Positions 790-20,177 of a DNA stretch of 20,750 nt are shown one piece after another. The translations under genes and the position numbers were made by a program. The first letter of the stretch is position 1, and each line of letters opens with the position of its first letter. The DNA lies in the IMG/VR virus record IMGVR_UViG_3300023244_000011, positions 1 to 20,750 of that record. One strand, 5' to 3'. This DNA comes from a virus. A model generated the notes under the pieces. That model did not search any database. It saw only the letters and a program-made list of their open reading frames with translations, and was not told where the DNA came from.

Positions 790-1048
790 ACTCTTTCATC
801 TCCTCTCCGTTTAACCAGTTAGGATTGTCTTTATTGAAGAAATCTCTCTCTTTTTCTGTTGAAAGCTGTTGGTATTTGATCATAATTCCCGGCAATCTCT
901 CACCAAAAACCTTTGGTTTGTAAAGATTGATCCAATCATCTGCCGTATGTTCAGCAAGCTTAAGAGCTAACTCATCTCCGTCATAGGTTTTGAGCAACTC
1001 AACACACTTTCTACCAACAGCACATCTAGGTGGAGGAAGTTGAACCAT
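644..1048 (-). CDS. Hypothetical protein downstream of the replication initiator (134 aa)
   Basis: No family recognised. The protein is charged and mainly helical, with Cys at residues 9 and 15 and a Lys/Arg-rich C-terminal third. The start has an AAGGA site about 7 nt upstream and overlaps the 3' end of the replication initiator gene by 23 bp. Its own 3' end overlaps the next gene by 146 bp. Small proteins next to DnaD-like phage initiators are sometimes helicase loaders or partners. This one shows no Walker motif, so that role cannot be read from the sequence. Confidence 0.7.
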   Translation of the reverse strand: MVQLPPPRCAVGRKCVELLKTYDGDELALKLAEHTADDWINLYKPKVFGERLPGIMIKYQQLSTEKERDFFNKDNPNWLNGEEMKEYADRKRGIKGENASNRRYLKETLQRLEHDTQRSEKVRVIFSLYRHVKV

Positions 1049-1745
1049 TCATGATCCTTTCTATATGCTTATCCACATTCTTTGTTTTAGATCTAATTTG
1101 TTGAACTTCTCCCTCGTTTGTAATAGGATCTTCAACCCAATCTTCCCAGTTATTAAACCAAGTAGAAGCATTCTGAACAAAATTCTTCTTAACTCGATCA
1201 GACCTTTTGTAGTTTTCCAGCGCGGACTTAATCCTTTCAAAATCTTGTTCTGTTTGTATTGATGAGTAGAAAGACTTCTCTGCTCTCTTTCTTCCAATCT
1301 TGTTAGGATATGATGTCCAGATTGTGTCGAAATGCACACCCCCTATATAAACAGCTTTATGTTTACCTTTATGTTTATGTATATCTTTATCACTCTTGCC
1401 CCACTCTTGGTCAAGGGTTAACCCATTTTCTATAAGTCTTTGTCTCACAGCCCTATGGAAGTTTATTGAACTGTTCAATTCACCACAATGGAAACGTACA
1501 TAATCATGTACATACCACTTAGAACCACTGTTTAATACAGTCATCTGTTTACCCAATAATTCTAGTGATTTGTCATAAGTTAGTGTAGTACCAATGAAAT
1601 ACGAAGCAGTATCGAAATCTACATACCAAATACCAGCTATGTCGCATTTGTCCAATATGTACAACCATAGAGCTTTGTACTCTGGAGGCAACTTTCTGAA
1701 CCAGGGTCTTTCCCATTTCTCAGTATCAGTATGCCTTTTAGACAT
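1026..1745 (-). CDS. DnaD-like phage replication initiator / helicase-loader-type protein (239 aa)
   Basis: The N-terminus (about residues 5-115) has the layout of phage replisome-organiser winged-helix domains, with the conserved run around residues 10-50 (KWERPWFRKLP, ALWLYILDKCD, GIW.VD). A short Lys/His-rich linker (residues 119-131) leads to a C-terminal domain with F139, W143, SYPNKIGRKRAEKSF (145-159) and NASTWFNNW.DW (192-203). This C-terminal signature is common in phage replication proteins that act at the origin and bring in the helicase. The gene lies 2 nt after the SSB-like gene with an AAAGG site, in one operon with the recombination genes. The linker-coding DNA holds short direct repeats (see 1355-1382). 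The replication role is likely; the exact step is inference. Confidence 0.8.
   Translation of the reverse strand: MSKRHTDTEKWERPWFRKLPPEYKALWLYILDKCDIAGIWYVDFDTASYFIGTTLTYDKSLELLGKQMTVLNSGSKWYVHDYVRFHCGELNSSINFHRAVRQRLIENGLTLDQEWGKSDKDIHKHKGKHKAVYIGGVHFDTIWTSYPNKIGRKRAEKSFYSSIQTEQDFERIKSALENYKRSDRVKKNFVQNASTWFNNWEDWVEDPITNEGEVQQIRSKTKNVDKHIERIMNGSTSST
1355..1382. repeat. Short AT-rich direct repeats inside the initiator gene (possible iterons)
   Basis: CTTTATGTTTA occurs at 1355-1365 and again at 1367-1377, a 12-bp period, followed by a partial third copy overlapping from 1374. They encode the His/Lys linker of the initiator, so amino-acid composition alone may explain them. Origins of lambda-type phages lie at this position inside the initiator gene, which is the only reason to record them as origin candidates. 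Confidence 0.3.
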
Positions 1746-1747
1746 TC

Positions 1748-2227
1748 TTACTTACCTTTCTTCTTTGTTTCTTTAGGTTGTTCTTCTTCTTCTACCCATC
1801 CAGGAGTATCGTCTGTTGGAGTAACTTCAAGCATCTCTTGGTCACGATCATTGTTATAGCCTTTGATCTCGTTAACCATTGTTCCACTATCTAAGGTCTT
1901 TTCATCTACTAACCAAAAGGTTGTTCTGCCTAAAGAGGCTTGACATAGCTGATTAAAAAAATCAGAGTCCGTATCAATACCTTCTTTGAAGTCAAGTCCA
2001 CAAGCACCTAATAGATTAGCTACTCTCCATACAGAAGAATCAACCATAATAGTTCTATCCCATAAAAACTTTCCTTTAAAGTCTTCTGGTTCAATAATTT
2101 CAGCTTTCCATTTAATTTGAGGTGTTCCCTTAACACTTGAATGACCATGCTCATAATTAACAACACGGACTTTATATGTTCCTGCTGGTACTGGTTCAAA
2201 ACTACTTGGCTTTGGTAACTTTGGCAT
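1748..2227 (-). CDS. DUF669-like protein, putative phage ssDNA-binding protein (159 aa)
   Basis: The start of the protein (PVPAGTYKVRVV, about 12-23), followed by a strand pattern with IKWKAEIIEPEDFKGK (38-53) and WDR, matches what I know of the DUF669/phage SSB-like family. These proteins bind single-stranded DNA and are usually encoded beside a Sak4-type ATPase. The C-terminus is acidic (VEEEEQ) and then lysine-rich; acidic tails are common in SSBs, though here they are not the final residues. The gene starts within the last 26 bp of the ATPase gene and has an AAGGAG site 7 nt before the ATG. Family and neighbour agree; binding itself is inferred. Confidence 0.72.
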   Translation of the reverse strand: MPKLPKPSSFEPVPAGTYKVRVVNYEHGHSSVKGTPQIKWKAEIIEPEDFKGKFLWDRTIMVDSSVWRVANLLGACGLDFKEGIDTDSDFFNQLCQASLGRTTFWLVDEKTLDSGTMVNEIKGYNNDRDQEMLEVTPTDDTPGWVEEEEQPKETKKKGK

Positions 2228-2993
2228 CTTTATTCTCCTTTTTATAATCCTCTGCTATTGCTCTCATATCTGAATAGTCAAAGTCTTTAATTTTTTTAAT
2301 AATATTAGCTAGATCAGCTTCTTCTCCTGCAAGATCTAACCCTTGAAACTGACTCTTTGTTATGTATTGTGTGCTTGGGCCTACTCTAATCCACCGCTTG
2401 CCTGATTTCTCATGGCACTCAAGATGTCCAACAACATCAACAAGTCCACAGATACGGAAACAACTAGCCTTTCCAACCATAGGAGCTGTCTTTGTTTGGG
2501 TAATGCCATCATTCTTTTGAATCTCATAAGGAAATTCCCAAGCATTAAATATAACATTGATACCTAACTCTTGAAGATCTCTCCATTCATGGATCCAAGA
2601 GAGCATTTTATAGGCAGCATCTCCGTGTTCTCTGATCTCTGGAAACTCCTTACCTCTGATTGTAGTGAAATGAATCTTAAGCTGATCTATCAACTCACTC
2701 ACATTGTCAATAACAACATTCTTAACCTTTAATTCCTTAGTTCGAATGCTTTTATAGAGCTCTGTCATGGCTTTTTCTATGTTTACACCGTTCAAAACAG
2801 CTTCTCTTAGGTTAAACACTATGTGTTTTGTGCCTAAAAGTGGCCCTAAGCCAGCTTCCGTGTTTATGATGAGTGTTTCTCCTTCTGGAAGGGTTGTTGC
2901 GAGGGTTGTCTTACCTATTCCGGGATCGGCATAGATAATGATAGATATTCCCCTATCTATCTTGCTTGGAGATACTTTGATAAACTTTGGCAT
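2202..2993 (-). CDS. Sak4-like RecA-fold ATPase (phage AAA_24-type recombination protein, 263 aa)
   Basis: A P-loop lies at residues 22-30 (ADPGIGKTT, with Ala where the first Gly is usual) and a Walker B strand at 92-96 (NVVID). The length and layout match the AAA_24/Sak4 group, RecA/Rad51-core ATPases used by phages for single-strand annealing with an SSB partner. The DUF669-like gene follows directly, and an exonuclease gene lies upstream in the same operon. The start has an AAGGAGG site and overlaps the previous stop as TGATG. A C-terminal Lys-rich tail is probably flexible. An alternative role is a replicative or accessory ATPase; the SSB neighbour favours recombination. Confidence 0.78.
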   Translation of the reverse strand: MPKFIKVSPSKIDRGISIIIYADPGIGKTTLATTLPEGETLIINTEAGLGPLLGTKHIVFNLREAVLNGVNIEKAMTELYKSIRTKELKVKNVVIDNVSELIDQLKIHFTTIRGKEFPEIREHGDAAYKMLSWIHEWRDLQELGINVIFNAWEFPYEIQKNDGITQTKTAPMVGKASCFRICGLVDVVGHLECHEKSGKRWIRVGPSTQYITKSQFQGLDLAGEEADLANIIKKIKDFDYSDMRAIAEDYKKENKDAKVTKAK

Positions 2994-3301
2994 CAGGCCT
3001 CCTTCTTTGGTTCAACTTCTTCCATTGATTCAACTGGAGTAAACGAATGAGATCCTCCGTTTGCTTGATCTGACGGATCCTCTGGATCAACTGGAGGTAA
3101 ATCAGGTAAAGGTTCAGGTTCTGGCGGAGTCGTTTTCTCAATTTCCTCAGCAATAGTAATGCGATACTTGAGGTTAAGAATATATCCAGCATCAGCTCCT
3201 TTGATCATAGTTCCATCAAGAATATTGATCAGGTTGTTTCTGTCACTTTGACTAAGCACTAAATTGAATCTAGGCTCTATTTGTTGCTCTTGTTTATTCA
3301 T
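2993..3301 (-). CDS. Hypothetical protein with acidic Pro-rich tail (102 aa)
   Basis: Not recognised. Residues 1-55 look folded, with hydrophobic residues spaced as in helices and strands. Residues 57-102 are rich in Pro, Glu and Asp and are probably disordered. It starts one base after the stop of the small membrane protein with an AAAGGGGAG site, and its stop overlaps the ATPase start. Acidic disordered tails occur in SSB-interacting and DNA-mimic proteins, and the position next to the recombination ATPase would allow such a role, but nothing in the sequence proves it. Confidence 0.68.
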   Translation of the reverse strand: MNKQEQQIEPRFNLVLSQSDRNNLINILDGTMIKGADAGYILNLKYRITIAEEIEKTTPPEPEPLPDLPPVDPEDPSDQANGGSHSFTPVESMEEVEPKKEA

Positions 3302-3302
3302 T

Positions 3303-3455
3303 TTACTCCCCTTTCAGTTTTTTACATAAGAATGACCACACTTCACCGATACCAATACCAACAAGCATAATAGCAACAAAAACTAGGTTTATGAAGAAAT
3401 ACCCTACTGTTATTGCTACTGCTAAAAAAATTCCAATCTTAATGAATTCCCACAT
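3303..3455 (-). CDS. Small membrane protein (50 aa)
   Basis: Translation gives 50 residues starting MWEFIKIGIF. Residues about 6-38 are almost entirely hydrophobic, enough for one long or two short membrane segments, and the C-terminus is basic (CKKLKGE). An AAAGGAG site lies 6 nt before the ATG, and the TAA ends one base before the next gene's ATG, so it fits the operon precisely. The function is unknown. Small membrane proteins in early phage operons can act in superinfection exclusion or takeover of the host membrane, but this is only context. Confidence 0.65.
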   Translation of the reverse strand: MWEFIKIGIFLAVAITVGYFFINLVFVAIMLVGIGIGEVWSFLCKKLKGE

Positions 3456-3477
3456 CACATACTCCTTTCTAAATAGC

Positions 3478-3502
3478 CCTCAGACTGCTGAGGATGCCTC
3501 AG
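3478..3502 (-). other. Overlapping alternative hairpins between two small genes
   Basis: CCTCAG (3478-3483), CTGAGG (3488-3493) and CCTCAG (3497-3502) lie in a row with 4-nt and 3-nt spacers. In the leftward transcript the middle element can pair with either flank, so two 6-bp hairpins exclude each other. There is no U-tract, so this is not an intrinsic terminator. It sits in the 69-nt gap between the GyrA-blade gene and the membrane-protein gene and could be an RNA processing or translation-control element. Confidence 0.35.
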
Positions 3503-3524
3503 GTTGAACGATCTACCCATATAC

Positions 3525-3689
3525 CTACTCACTTCCCTCTGAGATATTAAATGCAGCTACAACTTCATCATCAGGGGCTAGTCTTATTGCCCTAACTCCT
3601 TTACAACCTCTTGACATATCTCTTAATTGTTTAGAATCAAACTTAAGAATTACACCAGCCTTTGTTATTATTGTGATTATGTTTTTCAT
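3525..3689 (-). CDS. Stand-alone GyrA C-terminal blade-like protein (54 aa)
   Basis: The 54-residue translation follows the pattern of one repeat of the DNA gyrase A / topoisomerase IV ParC C-terminal beta-propeller (PF03989 type): IITIITKAGVILKFD (4-18), then LRDMSRGCKGVRAIRL (22-37), then DDEVVAAF (40-47). In GyrA the same order reads as a strand with T..G..VRF, then MGR...GVRGI.L, then GD.VV. In GyrA six such blades form a wheel that bends DNA; one blade cannot close a propeller alone. AGGAGG sits 5 nt before the ATG, so expression looks efficient. It may assemble as an oligomer, bind DNA, or interfere with host gyrase; these are hypotheses. The homology is strong by eye but rests on a short protein. 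Confidence 0.72.
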   Translation of the reverse strand: MKNIITIITKAGVILKFDSKQLRDMSRGCKGVRAIRLAPDDEVVAAFNISEGSE

Positions 3690-3699
3690 ACAAACCTCC

Positions 3700-3723
3700 T
3701 TGATTACATTTTTGATTACATTT
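3700..3723. repeat. Perfect 12-bp tandem repeat (two copies)
   Basis: TTGATTACATTT occurs at 3700-3711 and again at 3712-3723. The second copy contains the stop codon of the 58-aa gene and the first lies just before the AGGAGG site of the GyrA-blade gene. It is either a recent slippage duplication or a small regulatory repeat. Confidence 0.6.
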
Positions 3724-3892
3724 TTCCTGCTCTATACCATTTAATGTTTTCTTTGGTCAACTCAGAGATAGCTTTCGTTAACTCTTTAAGAGCTTCTAAC
3801 ACATCAATAACGTCTTGTTTACTTGCAGCTACGAACACTTCTTTTGCTACTTTCTTTTCTGGTACTACTTTTTCCTTTGTTTCTGGATCCAT
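3716..3892 (-). CDS. Small helical protein (58 aa) overlapping the exonuclease C-terminus
   Basis: Translation gives 58 residues: a charged Lys/Glu-rich start (1-17), then a likely amphipathic helix with leucine, isoleucine and valine spaced about every 3-4 residues (24-45), and a short basic end. An AAGGAGG site lies 5 nt before the ATG, one of the best in the window. It begins inside the exonuclease gene and overlaps its last 74 bp in another frame. The function is unknown; a coiled-coil partner or small regulator would fit. The strong ribosome site and its place ahead of the GyrA-blade gene make it likely real. Confidence 0.62.
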   Translation of the reverse strand: MDPETKEKVVPEKKVAKEVFVAASKQDVIDVLEALKELTKAISELTKENIKWYRAGKM

Positions 3893-4784
3893 CGGTTCCT
3901 CCTTTGGTTATGTTTATTGGTTTCTTCTCAAAAAATACATCGATTGTTAGGTTATCTGGTTCTTTTTGGAAACATATTGGTAAATAACTACATGCAGAGT
4001 TAAAGTTCCAACACGAATCAGGGTTCCTGTACCAATCGCACTTCCTGCATCTTGTTCTGATCTCCCTTGTTACTCTCCTTAGATCTTCTTCAAACAGATC
4101 TAAAGTTTCTTGAGAACGATAAGACGGATGACGCTTGTAATAGAACTCTGGTCTTTCTTTATAAGATGCTGATATTCTTCTTCCAAAATCATCCTTACTC
4201 TCGCGCACATGCCTTCTAAGCATAGGCTTCTTAACAAAGTCATAGATAATTCCTTCCACAGGATAGCCAGCTTTACGTACAGCATAGGTGTAAAGGGAAC
4301 ATTGTGGTGAAGTCTCACAGCGCTTCTCAAATTGACCAAAAGACATTCCTGTTGTCTTGAGCTCTCTTATCCAGAACTTTCCATCAATCTTAACAAGTCC
4401 ATCGATCTTCATAACGAGATCTACCCCTCTCATTCCAGGCATCTTAATCCTCAATTCAAGCTCAGGCTTGATATCTGAGAATCTAGACAAGTCTTTGGGA
4501 TAGTTGAGCCACATAGCTAGAGCAGTGTACTTAACGAGAACTAAACCCTCTGCTGCCTCTGGTGGAGCTTTGGCTATCTCCTCATCAGAAGTCTTTATAA
4601 TGAAATCAGTGACTTCATCAACAGAGAATTTATTGTAGTACATATCAAAAGCAGAGTGAACAATAGATCCTAGGGATAATGCGGTTGATCTTTTAAACGG
4701 AACAAGACCTCTAAGGTATCTCCAATAATATTTCTTTGGACATGAACGATAGATGCTTGTTGAGTTATTACTTATCTCAAGCAT
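3819..4784 (-). CDS. PD-(D/E)XK exonuclease, RecB/Cas4-like with probable Fe-S cysteines (321 aa)
   Basis: The sequence shows the motifs of the PDDEXK_1/RecB nuclease family: GSIVHSAFD with H43, KIDG with D128, the E-x-K motif RELKTT with E141 and K143, and a QxxxY motif (Q161, Y165). C15 in the N-terminal CPKKYYWRY stretch and C258, C265 and C271 near the C-terminus are placed like the four cysteines that hold a 4Fe-4S cluster in Cas4 and AddB. C246 and C249 add a further CxxC. The likely role is 5'-end resection supplying ssDNA to the Sak4-like ATPase and SSB-like protein. The last 24 or so residues are basic, probably disordered, and overlap the next gene. GGAGG lies 4 nt before the ATG, which falls within the end of the upstream 81-aa frame. 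Confidence 0.85.
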   Translation of the reverse strand: MLEISNNSTSIYRSCPKKYYWRYLRGLVPFKRSTALSLGSIVHSAFDMYYNKFSVDEVTDFIIKTSDEEIAKAPPEAAEGLVLVKYTALAMWLNYPKDLSRFSDIKPELELRIKMPGMRGVDLVMKIDGLVKIDGKFWIRELKTTGMSFGQFEKRCETSPQCSLYTYAVRKAGYPVEGIIYDFVKKPMLRRHVRESKDDFGRRISASYKERPEFYYKRHPSYRSQETLDLFEEDLRRVTREIRTRCRKCDWYRNPDSCWNFNSACSYLPICFQKEPDNLTIDVFFEKKPINITKGGTDGSRNKGKSSTRKESSKRSVRSCK

Positions 4785-5017
4785 TTTTCCTCCTCTCTTT
4801 TAGATTGCCTTGCATTGACTATACAACGATATGGTTGTCCGGGGGGTTGTTGGTGTTGACCTGCGGGTGGGTTGTAGAAAGGACAAGTAACGACAGAGCC
4901 CACCTCGACAGGAATCTCATGTGCGCCCAATATCCATCTGGCATGAGACATAAAAAAATGACGGAGGAGTTCCGTCATAGTATTTAAAATTATAGAATTG
5001 TGATGGGCGCGAAGCAT
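4772..5017 (-). CDS. Leader reading frame ahead of the exonuclease (81 aa, uncertain)
   Basis: An AAGAGGAA site lies 7 nt before the ATG and the frame runs 81 codons to overlap the exonuclease start by 13 bp, as coupled genes do. Its coding DNA includes an intrinsic terminator hairpin at codons 14-22, which is unusual for an ordinary gene. Part of the frame (about 4838-4880) is C-rich in the sense strand and unlike its neighbours. No domain is recognised; residues 44-63 are Pro/Gln-rich with Cys at 45 and 65. It may be a real small protein whose translation melts the terminator, or a leader peptide of which only the start matters. Confidence 0.45.
   Translation of the reverse strand: MLRAHHNSIILNTMTELLRHFFMSHARWILGAHEIPVEVGSVVTCPFYNPPAGQHQQPPGQPYRCIVNARQSKREEEKCLR
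4923..5010 (-). other. Structured leader: GC-rich 7-bp helix bracketing the terminator
   Basis: GCGCCCA (4923-4929) and TGGGCGC (5004-5010) are perfect complements and enclose the terminator hairpin. In leftward RNA they would form an outer helix of six G-C pairs and one A-U pair, giving a closed two-helix leader. The SD of the leader frame (GAGGA) can also pair with UCCUC in the terminator loop and 3' arm, a possible competing fold. The repeats are seen in the sequence; the folding is inferred. Confidence 0.45.
4952..4978 (-). terminator. Intrinsic terminator / attenuator hairpin
   Basis: In the leftward transcript ATGACGGA, a 5-nt loop and TCCGTCAT form a perfect 8-bp stem (4958-4978), followed at once by six T residues (4952-4957). 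There is no matching T-run on the other side, so it acts on leftward RNA only. It could end late transcripts coming from the virion genes. It also lies about 90 nt downstream of the promoter at 5049-5076, so it would stop early transcripts too unless translation or an antiterminator prevents the hairpin. Confidence 0.85.
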
Positions 5018-14800: not shown

Positions 14801-15154
14801 GTCTTGATATGTTGCGAATGAACATCTCTTTCCATCTGTTAAGCCTGTTCTTATTGCAGTAGCTGTTCCGGAGTCACTAATTGAATACGCAGTTGTTCCA
14901 CATACAGTAACCCAAGTGGCCAAACCAGTTGAGGCGTAATATCTGTAAAGACCAACAACAGGATCAGTACCCATAGAAACATCATTAAGATGAGACAAAG
15001 GTTCGCGTTTATCTAACGATCCCGGTTCTTCTTCAAAGCGACAGTTCTGTGCCTTTTCAACCCATTTAGTCTTAAGATCAAGATCCTCAACTTTGCTATT
15101 TTGACCAGGCATCGTTTTTATGTACCAGTTCTTTACCTGTGATGTTAAAGTCAT
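11810..15154 (-). CDS. Nozzle-like tail protein with inserted triple HxH fibre modules (1114 aa)
   Basis: Residues 1-490 look like the beta-propeller tail nozzle/stabilisation proteins of podoviruses: an early NCRFEEEPGSLDKREPL segment, then repeated strands with WTV, RTGLTDGKRCSF and YSNVYLPHYIQQ. From about 519 to 890 there are three related modules, each with a conserved start (PDGIVIFWD, PDGAIVMWD; the third diverged) and two HxH motifs about 29 residues apart (571/600, 675/704, 831/861). After that the propeller-type sequence resumes. HxH pairs bind metal in T4-type fibres and collar domains. The frame reaches a GTG at 15190, but I prefer the ATG at 15154, which overlaps the HNH stop as ATGA; its AAGGAG site is rather far at 11 nt. 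Probable job: closing the tail and presenting a receptor-binding surface. Confidence 0.72.
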   Translation of the reverse strand: MTLTSQVKNWYIKTMPGQNSKVEDLDLKTKWVEKAQNCRFEEEPGSLDKREPLSHLNDVSMGTDPVVGLYRYYASTGLATWVTVCGTTAYSISDSGTATAIRTGLTDGKRCSFATYQDLLICSNGYDNPWTWDGDTTNNVTWELGGCKAVLGAAGGSLEASKDYYYSITLDADAVVNGAFSNTVTTDASKKTIELTEIPLGPTGTTNRKIYRTEGDGSSLKLVATLADNTTTTYSDTVADASLTTAYPAVTDDMPKGSILKLHRERLFIAGDPSSPSKIYYSNVYLPHYIQQTTNLDYMEISPDDGDEIMGIPIQLEVMICIKKNSIRKVHVTSAVSGSDPETWYADDPIAWLGSPAQWSITQTPNGVVFLGWDHWYVFDGASAQPLFDEFDTGDILEAKYSDTVGYLHNENFYAAYTDKESAAQIHNRLMVYNLKRTALAYDLWTSTTITGPNCFGARSGDDEVGDLYFGDSVKGYVLKERDTNSTYRLRTKVECNAGTASDVFVGGTENAPYLEIGDSVTPDAIPDGIVIFWDNDTQVPGTGWTEITGLEDKIIKLGMGAWDSSDGTDHTHVLTSSIPMWYGSNVNYGDGNANCVSAHTHEVASTSNGSSPLPRNIKYRMFKSSSNTDTEFPDGAIVMWDQATAPTGYQVLSSVGYYISQDTADLGVGDSSSHSHSFSIPTGTAAGNLAESDSGTNGPRYGHTHTITGALSTETNDTWEVDYVALTFIKKVGETSTWDGVEKYCYALYAPNYVSTSGDGTDMDVSAPVLELTLSSAENVTSSGSATARVITYEPVVNRSGWEEVSTYDDRYLKIGGDEPATGDEANESHTHTGGTFTTSTGSSSWGNGGYHAGGYADPHTHEAVIASANSDLETPPSVTFRLVKKILGKMKSYNDAIESSSYTTGTWTSLSQNINADTLLKLYWNESISGSDDVVFYTRSGATQTACESASWSVGVTDSNGSTITSTANVWFQYKLTFTATDTTSTIPKVYFTDGYVVKYEYHAGVTVAETSVNFEYGIGLRNFDEPSLDKVFKKIITKHAGETGSFTVSWETENSNDEFVVPLDTYPKYWDSYFQDDAMGKEIDFTISKNDLNEFRISEIKGIFSPYGIII
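12560..13580 (-). repeat. Three diverged repeat modules with paired HxH motifs
   Basis: Within the nozzle-like gene the encoded HTH/HSH triplets fall in three pairs with nearly equal spacing (29, 29 and 30 residues). The modules also share a leading P-D-G-x-(V/A)-I-x-x-W-D element (first two) and a closing aromatic/basic strand (KYRMFK, ALTFIKK, FRLVKK). The copies are clearly related but not recent duplicates. Confidence 0.75.
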
Positions 15155-15513
15155 TTTATTAGAAACTCCTTCTGACAGTGAGGACAGCACACTTTAGCCT
15201 TATGAAAACCAGTAACCATAATCTCAAGATTCTCTATCCTATTGTCATTTTTTATAGCATTCTTATGATGAATTTCTTCACTTCTTAAAAGCTTTCTCCC
15301 TAAATGCTCTTCCATGATATGTCTATGTTCTCTGACATATCTTTCTTTAGGTCCTCTCCAGATATTAACATAGCCATGTTGCTCATATCTCCCGCCTCTC
15401 CATCGTGCTTTGCCTAAATTCTTACGATGTTCTTCAGACCTAGGTGGTCTTTTCTTGCCAATTAAAGAACGGCTTATGTTTTTCTTGTGTTCTTCTGTCA
15501 AAGGTTTTCCCAT
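15151..15513 (-). CDS. NUMOD3-HNH homing endonuclease (120 aa)
   Basis: The N-terminus has two NUMOD3-type motifs (LTEEHKKNISRSLIGKK at 5-21 and SEEHRKNLGKA at 26-36), DNA-binding elements typical of homing endonucleases. The HNH core follows: YVREHRHIMEEHLGRKL (59-75), then EEIHHKNAIKNDNRIENLEIM (79-99). The C-terminus has a zinc-knuckle start, CCPHC, near 109-113. It lies between the adaptor and nozzle genes and overlaps the nozzle start as ATGA. AGGAA lies 7 nt before the ATG. A free-standing mobile gene inside a late operon is typical for phages; no intron is visible. Confidence 0.88.
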   Translation of the reverse strand: MGKPLTEEHKKNISRSLIGKKRPPRSEEHRKNLGKARWRGGRYEQHGYVNIWRGPKERYVREHRHIMEEHLGRKLLRSEEIHHKNAIKNDNRIENLEIMVTGFHKAKVCCPHCQKEFLIK

Positions 15514-16276: not shown

Positions 16277-16606
16277 TTATCCTCCCGCTTCTATTTCTGT
16301 ATATTTAAGACCCCAACCTATATGAGCTCTTTTCTTTGATTCTAAATCTCTTTGAGTATGACAAATAAATCCACACTTGCCACACCTAACATATTTGTTA
16401 TCTTTTAAAGCAGTCCTGTCCTCATTACGTCCATAATTAATAGCTCTAGATCTAACTGGCTCGCTCCTCTTTGATTGATATAAATATGTTCCACACATAG
16501 GGCAACCACCGGTAACAATAGGATCATCTATGTATCTCTCTATGGTAACTGGCTTTACAGAAAGTGTTAAATCAAAAGCTATTTGCTCATAGTTAGCATT
16601 AGCCAT
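16277..16606 (-). CDS. Zinc-ribbon protein, paralogue of the neighbour's C-terminus (109 aa)
   Basis: Residues 7-30 match one beta-repeat of the upstream 469-aa protein, and residues 25-109 match its C-terminal domain. C35, C38, C75 and C78 form a CxxC...CxxC zinc ribbon, with an extra C82. RYIDDPI, GCPMCGTYLY and CGKCGFIC are nearly identical in the two. The start overlaps the upstream stop (TAATG). It appears to have arisen by duplication of the 3' end of the upstream gene. A structural role is likely from its place between two virion genes; the zinc ribbon may be a docking point or bind a metal for stability. Confidence 0.75.
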   Translation of the reverse strand: MANANYEQIAFDLTLSVKPVTIERYIDDPIVTGGCPMCGTYLYQSKRSEPVRSRAINYGRNEDRTALKDNKYVRCGKCGFICHTQRDLESKKRAHIGWGLKYTEIEAGG

Positions 16607-18015
16607 TATCCTGCCTCAACTTCTTCATATTTTACTCCCCAACCAACTCTTGATCCTTCTGGAGCGTATTGATCTCTCTGTGTATTACAGATAAATCCAC
16701 ATTTACTGCATTTAATATATGCATCATCTTTGTACTCACCTCTATCAAAGTTTCGGCCATGTCTCACAGGCTCAGAGAATATTCTTCTCTTAGGAACTTG
16801 ATTGACACCTCTCCTGTATAGATAAGTACCACACATCGGGCATCCACTCTTATCAATAGGATCATATATATATCTTTGTATGCTTGGGTCTCTAAGGTCT
16901 AGAGACAATGCTAGTAATCCAGAAGTAGAAGAAATATTAATATTAACTGCCTGTTCTGATAAAGATAATGCAAACGATCCAGGTTTATTCATAATATTGA
17001 CATATGAAGTCAATAATGATATTGTCGCTGGAAGTACACTCGGTCCGACTGCATTAGAAATAGCTGAATCTAATAAAGAAATACCTAGTTCCAGAGTACT
17101 TGCTGTATATTTACTATTAAAATTTATATTAGGAGTCTCTACAGATATTGCAAGCTCTTGACGTTCTGGAATTGCTCCATGACCCTTATGAAGAATAACA
17201 TCATACACATCCAAAGACATTACTTGCTCAGAAGGTGTATCTAAATGAGAGAAGTTTGCATTAGGCACTTCTACAGAAAGAGCTAGTTCAACTGTAGAAG
17301 AATAAACATTACTAATACTTGTTATGCTTGGTGCCTCTACAGATAGAGTTAGTGTTTGCTCAGAAGGCAAGACAGTCCCAGTCCTAGCAATAGCAGGAGC
17401 ATAGGAAGCTAGAGATAAAGCAAACGTAGAAGGATCACTATAAATTACTGGAGTTGAAGTCTGTAGCGTTAAAGTTGATGTACTAGCTGCTGGTTCAACA
17501 GTAATATTAGTTTCTTCAGTATAACCAATCCCTGAAACATATGAATTGTAGGTACTACTACCATAACGAAAGTTACAAGCATTAGGAGAAACCCACCTAT
17601 CAGTATACTTATAGAAAGTCCACGTAACATTAGTTAGTCCTGTCCAACCTAGCTCACCAGATAAAAAAGTTTTAGTAGCATTAGAAACTTGAGTACAAGA
17701 ACTTGCTGTACCAATTTTCTCTATAATCTCTATCTTATCGGTAGCTACCATAGAACTTTCAGGACAAGACCAAGTTGTTGACTGAATTCCTGATGCTGGA
17801 GATGATGATACAGAAATAAGTCTACAAACATTAGCTACGCTGGTTCCTACTGAAGTAAAGCTATCATCACTATGCTTTATTCTGACTGAATAAGTTGAGT
17901 AATTAAAATAATAATTAGCCGCTTGAGACATGAACCAATTAAGGTAATCCGTAGAGCTACCCTGTGATGTACTTAGGGTTTCATCATCTCTATAATAAAG
18001 AGTTTCTGTTGCCAT
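16606..18015 (-). CDS. Beta-repeat structural protein with C-terminal zinc ribbon (469 aa)
   Basis: Residues 1-170 resemble a domain common in phage minor structural proteins (strand-rich, with GIQSTTWSCPES, FLSGELGWTGLTNVTWTFYKYT and YGSSTYNSYV). Residues about 181-380 hold roughly ten imperfect repeats of about 22 residues with the core (L/A)-x-L-S-(V/L)-E-x-P, four of them exactly 22 residues long. Residues 392-443 carry a zinc ribbon (C392, C395, C436, C439, plus C443). The next gene repeats the last repeat and ribbon. AAGGA lies before the ATG. I take it as a fibre- or decoration-like virion protein; its exact position in the particle is unknown. Confidence 0.7.
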   Translation of the reverse strand: MATETLYYRDDETLSTSQGSSTDYLNWFMSQAANYYFNYSTYSVRIKHSDDSFTSVGTSVANVCRLISVSSSPASGIQSTTWSCPESSMVATDKIEIIEKIGTASSCTQVSNATKTFLSGELGWTGLTNVTWTFYKYTDRWVSPNACNFRYGSSTYNSYVSGIGYTEETNITVEPAASTSTLTLQTSTPVIYSDPSTFALSLASYAPAIARTGTVLPSEQTLTLSVEAPSITSISNVYSSTVELALSVEVPNANFSHLDTPSEQVMSLDVYDVILHKGHGAIPERQELAISVETPNINFNSKYTASTLELGISLLDSAISNAVGPSVLPATISLLTSYVNIMNKPGSFALSLSEQAVNINISSTSGLLALSLDLRDPSIQRYIYDPIDKSGCPMCGTYLYRRGVNQVPKRRIFSEPVRHGRNFDRGEYKDDAYIKCSKCGFICNTQRDQYAPEGSRVGWGVKYEEVEAG

Positions 18016-19472: not shown

Positions 19473-20177
19473 CTATTGTTGTACTTGGTCTGTTGTTTTG
19501 ATAAATTCTTCGTCTGTTTTTCTAGCTTTGCTTAAATTGCAAGCTGGACAAGCTATGGTTAAATTGTCTCTAACATTTAATCCACCCCTGCATAATGGTA
19601 TCTTATGTTCTAAATGCCAATCGTTCTCGCAAGATTCTAAACAGTATACGCAGGTCAACCCATCGTAGTCTTTGACGTTTTTATCGTAGACTTGTTTGAC
19701 CATAGTTGTTGTTAATGTTCCTGCTTTTTTTTCTCTGGAATATCTACGTCTTTTCCCTGCTCTTATATGAAACTGAGCACTAGGAGTTTTATTATATCCT
19801 TTAACATATTTCTTTCTACATTCCTTGCAAGATGATATTAAACTATCCCAAGTATTTTTGTCCTTACCAAAATTAGATAACTTAAGCCATTGACTACATT
19901 TGTGACAATATTTATTTTTAACATTGTCTATAATCTTATGATGACCATTGTTTGCTTCCCAGTAATATTTCTTTGAGCATGATTTTGAACAAAAGTTAGC
20001 AGGGAACTTCTTAGCATCATGGATATTTTTTATATGCGTTTTACCACAATAATCACAAACATATTCTGCAACAGATTTTTTAGCACGGTGTTTTGCAGAA
20101 CATCTCGGATTGCAAAAAATCTTATTTTTATATCTCGTGCTAAATTCTATTTCACATATAGGACATATTTTATTCAT
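19473..20177 (-). CDS. HNH endonuclease with three N-terminal zinc modules (234 aa)
   Basis: Three CxxC-type pairs come first: C5/C8 with C22/C26, C41/C44 with C63/C67, and C91/C94 with C117/C120. The HNH core follows at 176-217: CVYC, then HLEHKIPLCRGG (188-199) with H188 and H191, DNLTIACPAC (204-213) and NLSK. The core matches the HNH_5/McrA-like type with its own zinc. A basic linker (141-151, GKRRRYSREKK) joins the parts. It starts immediately after the stop of the LamG-like gene (TAAATG). It is probably a mobile homing-type nuclease that entered the late operon; the zinc modules may set its target site. Confidence 0.85.
   Translation of the reverse strand: MNKICPICEIEFSTRYKNKIFCNPRCSAKHRAKKSVAEYVCDYCGKTHIKNIHDAKKFPANFCSKSCSKKYYWEANNGHHKIIDNVKNKYCHKCSQWLKLSNFGKDKNTWDSLISSCKECRKKYVKGYNKTPSAQFHIRAGKRRRYSREKKAGTLTTTMVKQVYDKNVKDYDGLTCVYCLESCENDWHLEHKIPLCRGGLNVRDNLTIACPACNLSKARKTDEEFIKTTDQVQQ

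Follow-up and report, generated by a model that had tools for sequence, protein, structure and literature searches.

Identification of a stand-alone gyrase repeat

A protein of 54 amino acids encoded by an uncultured phage is, judged from its sequence, exactly one repeat from blade 4 of the C-terminal domain of a cellular GyrA. Its gene is located at positions 3525-3689 of the window, which is the whole 20,750-nucleotide stretch analyzed here (IMG/VR record IMGVR_UViG_3300023244_000011). The open reading frame lies on the minus strand, with the ATG at 3689 and the stop codon ending at 3525, and the product is MKNIITIITKAGVILKFDSKQLRDMSRGCKGVRAIRLAPDDEVVAAFNISEGSE. The plus strand across this region is dense with stop codons. 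An earlier sequence-only reading had placed the gene at exactly these coordinates and had called its ribosome-binding site excellent, in agreement with the AAGGAGG found 5 nt ahead of the ATG. The GC3 of the gene (0.20) is low, as in the neighboring genes. The record encodes an SU10-type adaptor and therefore derives from a tailed phage. A short direct repeat (AAAATGTAATCAA, two copies) is present at 3700-3726, between the preceding gene for a 58-aa protein and the Shine-Dalgarno sequence; it could be an insertion scar.

A second IMG/VR record contains 12,993 bp fully identical to this one and probably represents the same viral population, perhaps the same sample. The blade sequence is cellular in kind, as would be expected if phage and bacterial DNA had been joined during assembly. 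Such a chimera is extremely improbable and is nearly refuted by the identity of the two records, though these may share a sample, and by the gene itself, which holds one repeat only, shares 67% identity with the closest GyrA detected, and has its own start codon and ribosome site.

Sequence family and predicted fold

The protein matched PF03989 with an E-value of 3.1e-11 and a score of 43 bits, the cut-off being 27. The alignment paired residues 6-49 with positions 4-47 of the profile and so covered 44 of its 48 positions. At the sequence level this match is far beyond chance, and the proposal of a gyrase blade, which was to be dropped if the PF03989 profile did not match, withstood the search. 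A six-frame search of the whole record detected no second PF03989 match. Thus, the product does not have the several blades per chain that characterize GyrA and ParC, and it also lacks their catalytic breakage-reunion domain. No PHROG family was detected for the protein at E-values up to 1, and RNA-family and tRNA searches gave nothing informative.

Structure prediction of the product alone, which had been suggested as a check, was performed with AlphaFold2 using a 41-row alignment (pLDDT 84, pTM 0.60). In the monomer model, strands were assigned to residues 2-9, 14-18, and 43-51, and the segment 19-42 contained only a short helical turn and no strand. The best ten PDB matches of the model were all C-terminal domains or holoenzymes of GyrA or ParC, with TM scores of 0.54-0.71 over the query; their E-values (0.05-0.94) were weak because the chain has only 54 residues. 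The protein is thus predicted by the model to have the repeat fold of the GyrA C-terminal domain. A Foldseek search against viral models gave no convincing small match.

Within the pinwheel of gyrase, each repeat contributes its strands B and C to the next blade, and this hairpin exchange is the rule (PMC3797127). The protein is therefore one repeat unit and not by itself one complete blade. This modifies the earlier claim that the whole product equals one blade: the single GyrA-type repeat stands, with 44 of 48 profile positions aligned, but a repeat gives strands to two blades and so leaves its own incomplete. Completion of a gyrase blade takes a hairpin from a neighboring repeat, so the lone repeat should need a partner, and by analogy with the gyrase fold it would have to pair either with its own copies or with host GyrA.

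Descent from blade 4 of a cellular GyrA

The NCBIfam GyrA models aligned the protein to GyrA positions 652-699, which correspond to blade 4. We also built a separate profile for each of the six blades, using 19 proteins that have all six. The protein scored 62.4 bits with the blade 4 profile and 33.4 bits with that of blade 6, followed by blades 3, 1, 5, and 2 (21, 18, 12, and 5 bits, respectively). The nearest sequence found by tblastn was blade 4 of Acetoanaerobium noterae GyrA, with 69% identity over residues 7-45; in a codon-by-codon comparison, 26 of 39 residues (67%) and 80 of 117 bases were the same. The A. noterae match is located in an open frame of 818 aa that encodes six blades, and this species is the nearest GyrA found, not an identified host. 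By the profile scores and this identity, the ancestor of the phage gene was blade 4 of a cellular GyrA, and the gene has diverged since. It shares with blade 4 of known GyrA structures (PDB 5ztj, 1suu, and 3l6v) the sequence family, the predicted strands, the blade 4 signature, and a DNA-binding arginine, but in GyrA about six such repeats are attached to a catalytic domain, whereas one repeat is the entire phage protein.

The 69% identity over 39 residues means that interfaces with GyrA may still match. The protein might accordingly modulate host gyrase, a possible but doubtful role suggested by sequence: it would exchange hairpins with, or dock on, the C-terminal domain of host GyrA, or compete for wrapped DNA, and supercoiling would be lowered or retuned in favor of phage replication. 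Its size resembles that of the known phage gyrase regulators Igy of phage LUZ24 and Gip of the Corynebacterium glutamicum prophage CGP3, which are also about 50 aa long and act on gyrase (PMC10886550). This likeness is a functional analogy only; no homology of Igy or Gip to GyrA blades is reported in that review, and Igy is modeled as an acidic DNA mimic whereas the lone repeat is net basic. No LUZ24 or Corynebacterium record was listed among the tblastn matches of the repeat in phages (E up to 10), in a collection that may not contain them.

DNA-binding residues

Residues R23 and R27 aligned with chain positions 184 and 188 of the Salmonella GyrA C-terminal domain (5ztj). Using a numbering offset of 528, which was verified on five published arginines (R612, R667, R716, R766, and R817), these correspond to R712 and R716 of Salmonella GyrA, respectively. 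Mutation of R716 abolishes DNA binding and that of R712 weakens it (PMC7210945). R27 was invariant across the 41-row blade alignment.

We compared residues 25-31 (MSRGCKG) with the GyrA-box, Q(R/K)RGG(R/K)G (PMC3510516). Four of the seven positions matched, so the segment is not a GyrA-box. The RGCKG loop (residues 27-31) is nonetheless nearer to the GyrA-box than blade 4 loops are, and RGx(K/R)G was present in none of the 19 blade 4 sequences. The core charge of the phage protein is +3, equal to the median of blade 1, and the blade 4 median is +1 (range -1 to +5). The GyrA-box-like loop and the blade-1-like charge hint at DNA binding but are suggestive only.

Operon and variable slot in related phages

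The genes on the minus strand are arranged in the order exonuclease, 58-aa protein, lone repeat, 51-aa protein, 102-aa protein, Sak4-like ATPase, DUF669 protein, and replication-initiation-like protein (Table 1). Pfam and PHROG assignments of the exonuclease and of the last three genes bear out the suggestion that the repeat lies inside a recombination and replication operon. The 58-aa protein matched no Pfam or PHROG family at significance and may act together with the recombination enzymes. Proteins of the same type, with the motif ELTK...KW.RAGKF, are encoded between the exonuclease and Sak4 in the related phages L107 (4792-4935), L108 (4750-4986), and L114 (4738-4971).

Table 1 Features of the operon in the window and contents of the equivalent slot in related phages.
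Feature	Position	Strand	Evidence or remark
PD-(D/E)XK exonuclease	3819-4784	-	PF12705 6.7e-18; phrog_1218 2.5e-25
58-aa protein, motif ALKELTK...KWYRAGKM; 5' border of slot	3716-3892	-	Kept ahead of Sak4 in nearly all relatives
Shine-Dalgarno sequence AAGGAGG	3695-3701	-	5 nt before ATG of lone-repeat gene
Stand-alone GyrA blade 4 repeat (PF03989), 54 aa	3525-3689	-	Pfam, blade 4 HMM, NCBIfam gyrA, AlphaFold2 and PDB matches
51-aa hydrophobic, probably membrane, protein; slot gene 2	3303-3458	-	Lacking in relatives
102-aa Pro/Glu-rich protein; slot gene 3	2993-3301	-	Lacking in relatives
Sak4-like ATPase (AAA_24); 3' border of slot	2202-2993	-	PF13479 2.4e-21; phrog_124 5e-40
DUF669/single-strand DNA-binding-like protein	1748-2227	-	PF05037 1.3e-11; phrog_378 3.6e-8
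Replication-initiation/primosomal-like protein	1026-1745	-	phrog_270 3.1e-10
L110 slot	4701-4949		82-aa HTH-like ORF
L111 slot	3467-4983		321-, 124-, and 73-aa ORFs; first ParB-like by eye
L112/L121 slot	L121 4826-4978		50-aa ORF
L120 slot	4504-4971		155-aa HNH-like ORF

Scans of IMG/VR with the exonuclease and with an alignment of Sak4 yielded 12 distinct related phages with the same operon, after contigs that looked like the same virus were merged. The blade was absent from the available DNA of all 12. In the window, the region between the 58-aa gene and Sak4 forms a slot at 2994-3715. The slot is empty, with the 58-aa gene adjoining Sak4, in seven relatives (L107, L108, L109, L114, L115, L116, and L118) and holds other genes in four (L110, L111, L112/L121, and L120); the remaining one, L119, has 65 bp ahead of Sak4 and no recognized 58-aa gene. 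Since the slot contents vary among relatives, the lone repeat is cargo and not a core gene.

Debris of a broken gyrA was considered and ruled out, as no other blade was present in any frame of the record and none in the available DNA of the related phages. The objection raised beforehand, that the sequence might occur in relatives only as a fragment of a broken GyrA or ParC gene, thus fell away.

A piece of host gyrA might also have recombined in recently, acquired a start and ribosome site by chance, and be drifting without function. The presence of the gene in one virus only, with no relative carrying it, and the rapid turnover of the slot are what such a capture would produce. We regard it as unlikely, because the repeat has exact boundaries, a strong Shine-Dalgarno sequence, and a phage-like low GC3, no remnant of a neighboring blade remains, and key residues are kept though the closest GyrA detected differs at one-third of the positions.

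Mimicry of blade 4 in sequence and the location in an accessory-gene slot would also suit a decoy or adaptor that sequesters a host protein, antitoxin, or defense factor recognizing the GyrA C-terminal domain. This role is less probable still, as it has no candidate partner and no gyrase-targeting gene was identified nearby.

Elsewhere in the window, adjacent proteins encoded on the minus strand at 16277-16606 and 16606-18015 have similar zinc-ribbon-like tails (CPMCGTYLY ... CGKCGFIC or CSKCGFIC), suggesting by sequence a duplicated domain. HNH endonuclease genes at 15151-15513, with a weak NUMOD3 match, and 19473-20177 (both minus strand) lie amid structural genes and are likely homing endonucleases.

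Search for other stand-alone blades

We searched 50,697 phage records by tblastn, using the protein itself and a pair of consensus blades as queries, and extended the search to IMG/VR, plasmids, genome contigs, and samples of two bacterial classes. The pattern scans used short near-exact peptides, with which diverged lone blades could be missed. No other stand-alone blade was detected: every phage or cellular frame opened was GyrA/ParC-like or ran off a contig end. The search for single-blade PF03989 proteins in phages, proposed in the sequence-only reading, thus gave no second example among the frames opened. The phage matches, of which a subset was opened, were either jumbo-phage proteins annotated as GyrA or contigs listed as phage that look bacterial. 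IMG/VR matches were frames several hundred residues long that resembled GyrA or ParC, a few of them cut off by contig ends, and the sampled bacterial classes had only long frames among the matches listed. The PF03989 domain is already known; no phage protein made of a lone gyrase blade was found in the literature searched, mostly outside subscription papers.

PF03989 blades are also present in phage genomes within full-length GyrA/ParC-like topoisomerases, in jumbo phages and in large IMG/VR phages (L017-L020). Unlike the lone repeat, these are about 780-800 aa long and are usually encoded beside ParE/GyrB. Each of the large phages L017, L019, and L020 has genes for both subunits of a type II topoisomerase (ParE-like and ParC/GyrA-like), and in L017 and L019 this pair lies near an NAD-dependent-DNA-ligase-like gene. 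Contig L131 has a 246-aa GyrA C-terminal frame (2737-3474) that opens after a stop codon and continues up to the end of the contig; it may belong to a gyrA that is broken or frameshifted.

Proposed mechanism

We tentatively favor a self-assembled DNA-binding pinwheel, with the modulation of host gyrase close behind; both readings are drawn from sequence comparison. In gyrase, the inner hairpin of each repeat is lent to the adjoining blade; free copies of the phage protein would therefore complete one another by swapping hairpins and would form a small homomeric pinwheel, either a closed ring or a short spiral. The rim, carrying R23, R27, and a basic RGCKG loop per copy, would bind and bend duplex DNA and might help organize replicating or recombining phage DNA, without topoisomerase activity.

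Retention of the two DNA-binding arginines and the approach of the loop to the GyrA-box are consistent with this pinwheel, as are the rule of hairpin exchange (PMC3797127), the mostly strandless 19-42 segment of the monomer model, and the recombination operon. A precedent exists in a single blade derived from tachylectin-2 and evolved in vitro, which assembles into a five-fold propeller (PMC7734218). In this blade, and in the two- and three-blade Pizza designs, units smaller than a ring self-assemble into a propeller as proposed here, but these are engineered or evolved true propellers and not gyrase-type pinwheels. Against self-assembly, blade 4 naturally packs on blades 3 and 5 and not on itself, closeness to cellular GyrA fits interaction with host GyrA equally well, and the gene is present in one virus only, the identical second contig being probably of the same population. 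The fuller proposal, that the phage captured one host GyrA repeat whose copies, linked by hairpin exchange, make up a naturally occurring homomeric beta-pinwheel and act as a free-standing ring that bends DNA in the recombination and replication module, is a somewhat doubtful possibility suggested by the sequence.

The wheel with which gyrase wraps DNA consists of repeats joined in a single chain, and the enzyme is an important antibiotic target. Here a phage took a sub-domain, not a whole gene, from this cellular enzyme. The lone repeat would provide a natural test of whether gyrase repeats can assemble from single units, which bears on the evolution of pinwheels and propellers, and it may be a minimal DNA-wrapping module or a GyrA-derived modulator of gyrase.
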